NCBI GenBank assembly: GCA_015231885.1
Contig: JADGAT010000011.1
Location: 1-64,000, forward strand
From: SAR324 cluster bacterium
GTDB taxonomy: Bacteria > SAR324 > NAC60-12
DNA length: 64,000 nucleotides
Reading direction: 5' to 3'
Shown: positions 9,994-49,411 of the stretch, one piece after another
How the letters are laid out: each line of letters opens with the position of its first letter
Numbering within the stretch: position 1 is the first letter of the stretch
The notes under the pieces: model-generated
Told to the model about the DNA's origin: nothing
Database searches by the model: none
What the model saw: only the letters and a program-made list of their open reading frames with translations
Made by a program: the position numbers and the translations under genes

Positions 9994-11832
9994 TTAGGAC
10001 TGCTCTTCGCGTAAATTGAATTCCAGCTTCCAGCTTTGATCTCCTTCGATGGCGTCACACCAAAGTTCCAGGGAACCAATTTCTGAGAGAATCACCCGCA
10101 GTCTCACAGGAATGACGGTTTGATCCGCAGATTCTCCTTCTTCCACAGAAAAGTGAACTTCCAGTGTTGTCAGCTCTTCCAATGATTCTTCAGCATTCTC
10201 TACAGTCTCTCCCAATTGGTCTTCTGGGCGATCTCTTCCGATAAAAAATCGAAAATCAACGGGTTCTCCAACAACCAGCCCAAATTCCAAACCGGGAATA
10301 TCGAAACTGCTTCCTTCTTCTGTCCCGACTGGTACCACACAAAGCCCATTGAGCAAAGCAGGCATGCCAGGAATAGCAGGCATTGCTGATTCAACGCCAA
10401 TATAGTAAGAAAAGGCTGAAGCACTTTTTACCCGCACCCCTTTGCCGCGTCGCACACTTCCATAATAAGCAGCCCCAAGCGAAACAGCCAAATCAGGATT
10501 CTCTGCCTGCAGAGTAGATACGGGAGAACCGTTGTCATCCTGTAGCCACTGATTAATCACGGCCATGATACGTTCCTGGAAAATACCGGCTTTGGTAACT
10601 CCCCCATTGAACAAAATCGCGGTGGGGTGCACAAAAGCAGAAGCCCCTATTTTTTCGGCAAGGGGGCTGTCCGAGTCAACATATTTTTTGCTTTCTGACA
10701 AAAACCTGGCCAAGTGTTTCAAAATGGCAGAGTCAGCCGCATAATTGAGTCCAATGGTGCGCAAGCCAGTCCTGCGTGCTACTTGCGGATGATCATTAAC
10801 ACCACACTCTCCAAAAAAGCCCTCCAGCAATGTTCCTTCAATTTCGTTACGGGTCAGGTTGCTGGAAAGCGTACCACCGATGAGCTTGCTTCCTCTACCA
10901 GGAATAACAACCGACACTTCTCCGAGAGAGGGGTCCGACAACAACGATTCTTTGGCTTTTCGACAACTATGAGCCAGTCCGAAAAACTGCCATTGTTCGA
11001 GTTTTTTTCCGTCTTGCTCCATCTTCACCTGAACCGTCCGAGCCAATGCGAGATCCATGTTGTCACCTCCCAGGAGAATATGTTCACCCACGGCAATCCG
11101 GGAAAGAGTCAAGTTTCCTTCTTCTTCGGAAACAGAAATCAAGCTAAAGTCCGTTGTTCCTCCACCAATATCACAAACCAGGACCACATCACCCACATTG
11201 ATGATAGTTCTCCAATCGTCCTGATTCTCAGCAATCCAGGCATAAAATGCTGCAATGGGTTCTTCCAGCAGGGTGATTTCGCCAAATCCAGCATTTTTGG
11301 CAGCATCCATGCTCAGATCTCTGGCAACCACATCAAAAGAAGCTGGGACTGTGAGGGTCACATCCTGTGTGGATAGCCCGTCTTCAGGATTTGCATGGTT
11401 CCAGGCATCAAACAAATGTTTCAGATAGGCAGAGGACGCTTCAACCGCCGACATTTTTTCAATTTCTGGTGGAGCTGCCAACGGAAGAATTTTTGCGTGG
11501 CGACCTTCTTGAGAACATAACCAGGATTTGGCGGAGCTGCTCAAGCGCTGCGGAGTTTTTTCTCCCTGATCACGAGCGTAAGCTCCCACAATGTGAGAAG
11601 GATTCTCGTTCCAGGGAAGTTGAAAAACCTTTCCTTCCATTTCATGCTCGGCAGGATGATACAGAAAAGAAGACAAGGATGGAAGTGCATCCACCATAGA
11701 TTGATCAATTAACTGAGGAATCATGAATGAACGGGCCTGCTCTGACTCCTCATCATGATGATTATAGGAAGCAAAGGCGCTATTGGTTGTGCCTAAATCA
11801 ATACCAATACTGTATTTACTGTCATTACTCAT
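9994..11832 (-). CDS. Hsp70 family protein (YegD/HscC-like)
   Basis: A 612-residue protein with the actin-like ATPase fold: GIDLGTTNSAFASY at the N-terminus, VVLVCDIGGGTTDFSLI in the middle and LFNGGVTKAGIF later. It is a paralogue of the next gene: both share the segments KSWLCSQEG/KSWLCYHQ, TLTVPASFD and LLEEPQAAFYAW/IAAFYAW. The C-terminal 130 residues (LEELTTLEVHFSVEEGE to SWKLEFNLREEQS) align with an internal part of the larger paralogue. The gene pair therefore probably arose by duplication, with the larger copy gaining the DUF3731 region. A heteromeric Hsp70 pair is a reasonable hypothesis. Confidence 0.85.
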   Translation of the reverse strand: MSNDSKYSIGIDLGTTNSAFASYNHHDEESEQARSFMIPQLIDQSMVDALPSLSSFLYHPAEHEMEGKVFQLPWNENPSHIVGAYARDQGEKTPQRLSSSAKSWLCSQEGRHAKILPLAAPPEIEKMSAVEASSAYLKHLFDAWNHANPEDGLSTQDVTLTVPASFDVVARDLSMDAAKNAGFGEITLLEEPIAAFYAWIAENQDDWRTIINVGDVVLVCDIGGGTTDFSLISVSEEEGNLTLSRIAVGEHILLGGDNMDLALARTVQVKMEQDGKKLEQWQFFGLAHSCRKAKESLLSDPSLGEVSVVIPGRGSKLIGGTLSSNLTRNEIEGTLLEGFFGECGVNDHPQVARRTGLRTIGLNYAADSAILKHLARFLSESKKYVDSDSPLAEKIGASAFVHPTAILFNGGVTKAGIFQERIMAVINQWLQDDNGSPVSTLQAENPDLAVSLGAAYYGSVRRGKGVRVKSASAFSYYIGVESAMPAIPGMPALLNGLCVVPVGTEEGSSFDIPGLEFGLVVGEPVDFRFFIGRDRPEDQLGETVENAEESLEELTTLEVHFSVEEGESADQTVIPVRLRVILSEIGSLELWCDAIEGDQSWKLEFNLREEQS

Positions 11833-11872
11833 AGTATTTTTTTAAATGGATGTGTGTGTAATAAAGGCGGTC

Positions 11873-12535
11873 TCAAATCTCAATTTCAGCAGGAGCAAGA
11901 ATATTGCGTTGGTGAGAAGCTGTTAATTTTGGCAATTGATGTTTGGTGACCTGCCAGCCATGATGGATCAATTCTCCCTGAAAAGGAGGAGTTTTTTGTA
12001 CATTTCCACTAAGACGGATTTGTGCCGGGTCAAACTCCTTTTCAACCTGAACACGGCTCCCTTCTTCTTCGGCACGAATGGGGTCAATCGTAAAATACTC
12101 ATTCAAAACCTGAGCACAACCCTCATGCACCACACGTGCTGCCTCTCCGATTTCTGCATTAGAGAAAGTTTTCACATCCTGCTGTAAAAAATCAATCAAA
12201 CGGCCTGATTTTTGAAACAGGGAAAGTAGATACATACCGTCTGTCGGCTCTTCTTCAGGAGCAGGTTGCTCTTTTTGGGGTGATATCACTTCTACTTGTT
12301 CAGCACCATCAGAAGAAGCTGTACTGTCTACAGCGTCAGGCATTTCTCCTTCAGATTCAGAAATTTCTTCGGACGCTTCGGATTTTGCTTGCTCAATGGC
12401 AGCAAGTTTTTCTGCTTTGAGATCCAGTGTGACCTGATACACACGGTCAGCAAACTTTCGGCTGAAAACAATTCGCCAAAAACAAGCGATAGAATAAATG
12501 AAAATTCGATAAAACATGTTCAAACTTTTTTGCAT
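11873..12535 (-). CDS. DUF2760 domain protein
   Basis: A 220-residue protein that heads the Hsp70 operon. A hydrophobic N-terminal stretch (FYRIFIYSIACFWRIVF) suggests membrane association. Residues about 45-105 are acidic and low in complexity. The C-terminal half (LFQKSGRLIDFLQQDV, EIGEAARVVHEGC, PFQGELIHHGWQV) fits DUF2760. In other bacteria DUF2760 genes sit beside the same two Hsp70 genes, so it is probably their partner. The tail FQGELIHHGW and the preceding GNVQ segment look like a small beta domain. Function is not established. Confidence 0.75.
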   Translation of the reverse strand: MQKSLNMFYRIFIYSIACFWRIVFSRKFADRVYQVTLDLKAEKLAAIEQAKSEASEEISESEGEMPDAVDSTASSDGAEQVEVISPQKEQPAPEEEPTDGMYLLSLFQKSGRLIDFLQQDVKTFSNAEIGEAARVVHEGCAQVLNEYFTIDPIRAEEEGSRVQVEKEFDPAQIRLSGNVQKTPPFQGELIHHGWQVTKHQLPKLTASHQRNILAPAEIEI

Positions 12536-48953: not shown

Positions 48954-48985
48954 TGAAATTTTTAATTATTTATGAAAGTAATAAA

Positions 48986-49040
48986 TTTTTTAATTTAAAT
49001 TAAAAAAATAATTGACATTCTATATCGGTTGCTATATTGT
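48986..49040 (+). promoter_or_regulatory. Strong sigma-70 promoter with AT-rich upstream palindrome
   Basis: TTGACA (49012-49017), 17-base spacer, TATTGT (49035-49040). Just upstream is an exact 22-base AT palindrome (48986-49007) that may act as an UP element or operator. Transcription should start near 49047, more than 350 bases before the next gene, so it seems to drive an RNA rather than the fxsA gene directly. Confidence 0.65.
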
Positions 49041-49046
49041 ATGTTC

Positions 49047-49201
49047 AATATCTGAACAACATGATTTTCCATTTCTTGATTCTTAATTGATTTCCTCCGC
49101 AACGGCAGTCTCCATCACTGTCGTTCAACAGTTTCTATCGACTTTGGATGCTAGCCATATCCCTCCTTCTTCCAAAGTCGATAGTTGTTTTCTAAAACAG
49201 A
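49047..49201 (+). ncRNA. Candidate small RNA with two hairpins
   Basis: Downstream of a strong promoter, hairpin 1 pairs 49101-49109 with 49117-49125 (9 bp, one G-U, 7-base loop). Hairpin 2 pairs 49135-49148 with 49171-49184 (14 bp, perfect) around a 22-base pyrimidine-rich loop containing TCCCTCCTTC. The tail TTGTTTTCT is U-rich. Outer bases 49051-49059 can also pair with 49185-49201, closing the structure. CCTCC runs at 49094-49098 and in loop 2 are complementary to Shine-Dalgarno sequences, as in trans-acting sRNAs. No family is recognised. The region up to 49260 remains strongly pyrimidine-rich, so the transcript may be longer. Confidence 0.55.
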
Positions 49202-49411
49202 TTCTTTCTCTAACCTTCTCATTTCTTCCAGTATTTCAACTCTCTTGTTTATTTCTTTCAATTATTCTAATGCGAATAGCATGAATGGGCTTTTATTAAA
49301 AGTTCTTTCAATATATCTTTTCTGTATTGTTCTCATGCAGTAACACATAGATCTTGTTTTAATCAGTTCTAAAAAAGATAGCAACCAGAACAAAGAACAC
49401 AAAGAGATAAT

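Follow-up and report, generated by a model that had tools for sequence, protein, structure and literature searches.

A candidate small RNA with CU-rich loops in SAR324 bacteria, predicted to share an operator with surface-polysaccharide genes

Between a divergent rdgB-type gene (Ham1 family, Pfam PF01725; 48387–48953, minus strand) and a downstream fxsA gene (Pfam PF04186; 49412–49777, plus strand, start codon uncertain), a SAR324 bacterium carries a structured intergenic region that raises a simple question: is it a small RNA gene in its own right, or part of the message of a neighbour? The region lies in a window of 64,000 nucleotides of contig JADGAT010000011.1, the whole stretch of DNA analysed here. 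A sequence-only reading had favoured a probable new small RNA, expressed from a promoter of its own and with a possible anti-Shine–Dalgarno mode of action, with a long structured leader of fxsA as the alternative. Here we address the question by comparing the locus with its relatives across SAR324. The closest named relative of the rdgB-type gene is that of SAR324 PL24a_bin.25 (75% identity); the rdgB-type match in another genome, G006 (L065, contig 1, 218093–218635), contains one in-frame TAA.

Promoter and putative RNA together (48990–49193) form a sharply conserved block in two SAR324 relatives, with 95% identity to G001 over 48990–49191 and 87% to G003 over 48990–49195, TTGACA included; the flanks of the block are unalignable or only patchily alignable in both. 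Each relative was counted once, as the same G001 contig is present as L031 and L002/L056, and the same G003 contig as L032 and L003/L058. A covariance model of the three copies, from which G005 was absent, identified a fourth and diverged copy in that genome (59.2 bits, E = 8e-8), and this copy is syntenic, located upstream of an rdgB-type gene with fxsA beyond. Since a four-copy covariance model found copies in these four and in no other of 52 SAR324 genomes, the RNA is, judged by sequence, confined to three genera of one SAR324 family. Weak matches of the three-copy model to contig 11 of G001 (E = 0.047) and to G030 (E = 0.053) come without the start-site palindrome described below or a matching promoter and were taken as chance, and the short matches L012 and L015 were judged accidental.

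The −35 hexamer TTGACA (49012–49017, plus strand), also present in G001, G003 and G005, is separated by 17 bases from the −10 hexamer TATTGT (49035–49040, plus strand), which reads TATCGT, TAGTTT and TAGAGT in the relatives; the near-consensus promoter of the sequence-only reading is thus present at 49012–49040. Promoter-like sites are as common as chance predicts (6 found versus 5.4 expected), and the promoter pattern alone is not significant. Retention of TTGACA and the 17-base spacing in all four copies points, by sequence comparison, to a conserved promoter belonging to the element itself. Immediately upstream, the 22-base AT palindrome that had also been noted (TTTTTTAATTTAAATTAAAAAA; 48986–49007, no strand) is perfect in the window, but its inverted symmetry is lost in the aligned relatives, and it may be only an AT-rich, UP-like upstream tract.

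Downstream of this promoter we place a candidate small RNA gene of about 147 nt (49047–49193, plus strand), identified from the conservation block, its fold energy, the G005 homologue and covariation; its start is set 7 bases past the −10 hexamer and its end at a T-rich tail. The fold-energy z-score is −4.67, with none of 200 shuffles equally stable. Two hairpins, both claimed earlier and both recovered here, contain the best conserved parts of the transcript, namely hairpin 1 and stem 2. Hairpin 1 (49101–49125, plus strand) has nine pairs (49101–49109 with 49117–49125) closing the loop CUCCAUC, and its stem is kept in G005. Hairpin 2 (49135–49184, plus strand), supported by fold and covariation, has 14 perfect pairs (49135–49148 with 49171–49184; −20.1 kcal/mol) and a 22-nt loop containing CCCUCCUU at 49161–49168. 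The pairing of the transcript ends, a further element of the original description, is weakly supported, with 84% of cells paired in the closing helix 3.

Covariation analysis finds compensatory changes in the stems, all from the diverged G005 copy. In the four-copy alignment, 96.9% of cells are paired, compared with 27–47% in controls with the partners slid. Both sides have changed in four pairs, two each in stem 2 and in the weak helix 3 that closes the fold; within stem 2 of G005, a U–A pair becomes C–G, which is compensatory, and an A–U pair becomes U–G. One hairpin 1 position reads G–U in the window, A–C in G001 and G003, and A–U in G005. The structure itself was used to fit the alignment and, three of the four copies being near-identical, the covariation rests on a single diverged sequence; we therefore regard the compensatory change as good but thin support for a conserved structure. 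Identity to G005 follows the same architecture, being high in the start-site palindrome (88%), hairpin 1 (80%) and the stem 2 arms (79% and 86%) and low in the linker (36%), loop 2 (32%) and the tail (22%). Owing to the sharp conservation block combined with a diverged, syntenic homologue carrying compensatory changes, the element stands above chance.

A short leader-peptide or small-protein gene could occupy the same bases, given that an ATG at 49061 opens the frame MIFHFLILN in the window and in G001, and that the frame stays open for about 40 codons in G003. Yet the frame stops after nine codons in two genomes, lacks a Shine–Dalgarno sequence and has no start codon in G005, and the changes preserve the stems rather than the reading frame, so that we consider a coding function very improbable.

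Where the transcript ends bears directly on the fxsA question. Hairpin 2 is followed by the T-rich tail TTGTTTTCT (49185–49193, plus strand), with T-rich counterparts in G001 and G003 and none in G005; the tails in the window and the two relatives are TTGTTTTCT, TTGTTTTTC and TTTTGTTTC. Because conservation ends at this tail, hairpin 2 with its tail is likely to be an intrinsic terminator in the three genomes. That role is not universal, as G005 lacks the T-rich tail; a strong hairpin with such a tail occurs there about 100 nt further on, before an opposite-strand gene. Were the region instead a long 5′ leader, transcription from the promoter would run through both hairpins into fxsA, with hairpin 2 acting as a conditional terminator. 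Such a leader would fit the co-directional position of fxsA, some 220 bases further downstream, and the presence of fxsA on the same side and strand in all four RNA-bearing genomes. Against this, the sequence at 49195–49400, beyond the T-rich tail, cannot be aligned across all copies, and in G005 both the distal T-tailed hairpin and an opposite-strand helix-turn-helix gene (L059, 706–1386; plus strand in the locus, where the RNA is on minus) lie between the RNA and fxsA. The RNA is therefore not contiguous and co-directional with fxsA in every carrier, and this intervening gene, seen in G005 only, makes the leader proposed as the earlier alternative improbable. The independent small RNA of the original proposal is very probable: the unit is conserved as a whole and probably ends at a terminator-like hairpin.

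A functional product of the minus strand could be a CsrB-like RNA rich in GGA, or else the leader of the rdgB-type gene; in that orientation, loops and linkers read as GGA motifs. However, the plus strand is favoured by the conserved promoter, by the start-site palindrome and by the T-rich tail, and conservation does not reach a minus-strand promoter upstream of 49195. We judge a minus-strand product slightly less probable still than an fxsA leader, and continue with a plus-strand small RNA.

What controls this RNA is suggested by a second palindrome, missed by the sequence-only reading. TGTTCA-ATATC-TGAACA (17 bases; 49042–49058, no strand) spans approximately −5 to +12 relative to the predicted start. 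Its 12 arm bases are identical in all four copies, whereas two spacer bases are changed in G005. A reading of the palindrome as an RNA hairpin was rejected, because transcription from 49047 would omit most of the left arm and because the arms never vary. Its overlap with the start site suggests an operator at which a bound protein would repress transcription, the sign being read from position.

Exact TGTTCA-N5-TGAACA occurs at 16 sites in eight genomes, versus 2 sites for a reversed-pattern control. The window's own genome (G000) has just two exact sites: one is at the RNA promoter and the other in that of a contig 209 winged-helix gene (11800–12369, within 11618–12369; L093, L100 and L112), whose orthologues are L113–L126. 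The encoded regulator matches TIGR04176 (MarR_EPS; E = 1e-17 to 1e-19) with scores of 62.7–70.5 bits, below the cut-off of 88, so that these proteins are relatives rather than members of the equivalog. In SAR324, nearly all orthologues of the regulator gene carry such a site with at most one mismatch. The phylum yielded 18 matches to the regulator. The palindrome is perfect upstream of nine, in most cases preceded by a TTGAC-like −35 hexamer; five others, from genus g2, have a site with one mismatch and one has a site with two, and the palindrome is lacking at two distant matches (2 and 4 mismatches). The remaining match, the regulator copy L122 (G025 contig 3, 8758–9327), carries four in-frame stops and has lost the palindrome; the Wzz gene of G025 keeps one. 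The regulator gene, with a perfect site, is present in all four RNA-bearing genomes; the close genome G006, which lacks the RNA, lacks both. Identical arms at the promoters of the small RNA and the regulator, as expected of a shared operator, make a link between the MarR_EPS-like regulator and the RNA well supported; the regulator probably binds the palindrome. Among the papers searched, none was on the binding site of the MarR_EPS family; TGTTCA-N5-TGAACA is the operator we propose for the MarR_EPS-like protein.

Further palindromes lie by surface-polysaccharide genes (L103 1542 and L101 9891 in G001; L106 8001 and L107 8001 in G005; L110 8001 in G025). They adjoin a NusG-like antiterminator gene, first in a sugar-transferase cluster, and a DegT aminotransferase/cytidylyltransferase pair in G001, a PseB-type gene and cytidylyltransferase cluster in G005, and the Wzz gene in G025; one G001 site, on contig 26, has no polysaccharide context. 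The number of motifs within these loci was left out as evidence because the loci were selected by the motif.

How the RNA might act is suggested by its unpaired regions. CU-rich stretches are found in the linker, which contains an unpaired CCUCC (49094–49098, plus strand; CCUCU in G005), in the hairpin 1 loop (CUCC) and in the terminator-like loop. The last holds the second of the two CCTCC motifs reported earlier, both of which are present (49162–49166 for the second), within CCCUCCUU, a sequence resembling the 3′ tail of 16S rRNA. Two CCTCC in 151 nt arise in about 2% of shuffles and in a similar 2% of plus-strand window tiles, so the count alone is weak. In the three close copies, G makes up 4–5% of unpaired bases versus 29–36% for C, and in G005 the values are 10% and 34%. 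Such G-poor, CU-rich unpaired motifs are what characterizes the class of CU-rich small RNAs that pair with Shine–Dalgarno sequences. The anti-Shine–Dalgarno mechanism proposed at the outset is partly supported, with CU-rich unpaired motifs in all four copies; because each of the close copies keeps CCUCC whereas G005 has lost it and retains CUCC and CU-rich motifs, the strict anti-Shine–Dalgarno letters are not universal. From this anatomy we infer that the CU-rich loops and linker may pair with Shine–Dalgarno sequences of mRNAs. Target prediction, run as a simple duplex-energy scan, returned long, gapped, stem-dominated duplexes and nothing usable.

The same RNA could instead act without Shine–Dalgarno pairing, for example by titrating a CU-preferring RNA-binding protein or through pairing of hairpin 1 with one specific target. 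Hairpin 1, at 80% identity in G005, is better kept than the linker (36%) or the CCUCC-bearing loop 2 (32%), as this explanation would have it. But the unpaired regions remain CU-rich and G-poor in G005, as expected of Shine–Dalgarno-pairing RNAs, and we think this alternative unlikely, although the most credible of the rivals. As regards protein partners, none of the 52 SAR324 genomes gave an Hfq match exceeding the Pfam cut-off, and profile searches of the four RNA-carrying genomes did not detect ProQ; control searches gave matches. A single weak, partial Hfq match was seen in G047.

Taken together, we favour, with moderate confidence, a trans-acting small RNA of about 147 nt that needs no Hfq, is under a MarR_EPS-like regulator, belongs to a surface-polysaccharide regulon and represses through Shine–Dalgarno pairing. 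The RNA would be read on the plus strand from 49047 as an independent transcript, and the regulator would bind the palindrome over its start site; the shared palindrome would place the RNA in the regulon. The RNA would work in trans, independently of Hfq, through pairing of its loops and linker, which are rich in C and U and poor in G, with purine-rich Shine–Dalgarno regions, lowering translation of the targets.

No Rfam family was matched, either in 6 kb searched up to E = 1 or in the whole window at the gathering score. 6S RNA (RF00013) is similarly long and structured, and the genome's only match to it lies elsewhere (G000 C182, 67.9 bits). In its anatomy—CU-rich motifs in linker, hairpin loop and terminator-like loop—the predicted RNA is like the LhrC and alpha-r14/cuckoo RNAs. 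The LhrC family of Listeria (PMC4132741) is likewise G-poor, does not need Hfq and is linked to envelope control, with a length of about 110 nt versus 147 here; it differs in phylum, in being multicopy and in its control by LisRK, whereas the SAR324 RNA is single-copy, probably under a MarR_EPS-like regulator, and matches no Rfam family. The alpha-r14/NfeR1/cuckoo RNAs of Alphaproteobacteria (PMC10746234, PMC3927594, PMC4504443) share with it at least two hairpins with anti-Shine–Dalgarno loop motifs and a sigma-70 promoter of their own that has a conserved upstream element. Those RNAs carry identical CCUCCUCCC loops on variable stems; the SAR324 RNA has conserved stems and, in place of repeated CCUCCUCCC loops, a CUCCAUC loop and one of 22 nt that contains CCCUCCUU; these motifs are shorter, differ from each other and are not strictly kept in G005. 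In the icaR mRNA of Staphylococcus aureus, a C-rich motif in the 3′-UTR pairs with a Shine–Dalgarno sequence to control a polysaccharide regulator (PMC3868564), a comparable arrangement, except that this 3′-UTR acts on its own mRNA rather than as a separate small RNA and that pairing in SAR324 is inferred. By analogy, the SAR324 RNA may work like the CU-rich-loop small RNAs, of which it is not a member by sequence.

More broadly, and tentatively, we suggest that in a phylum without recognizable Hfq, a MarR_EPS-like autorepressor may use one operator for its own gene, for several surface-glycan clusters and for a CU-rich-loop small RNA that would add a translational layer to a surface-polysaccharide switch. 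A literature search on small RNAs in SAR324, an uncultured group, returned nothing relevant, and the candidate appears not to have been described before; a specific regulator and DNA site can be predicted for it. It thereby offers a testable link between the control of surface polysaccharides and the control of translation in bacteria without recognizable Hfq.
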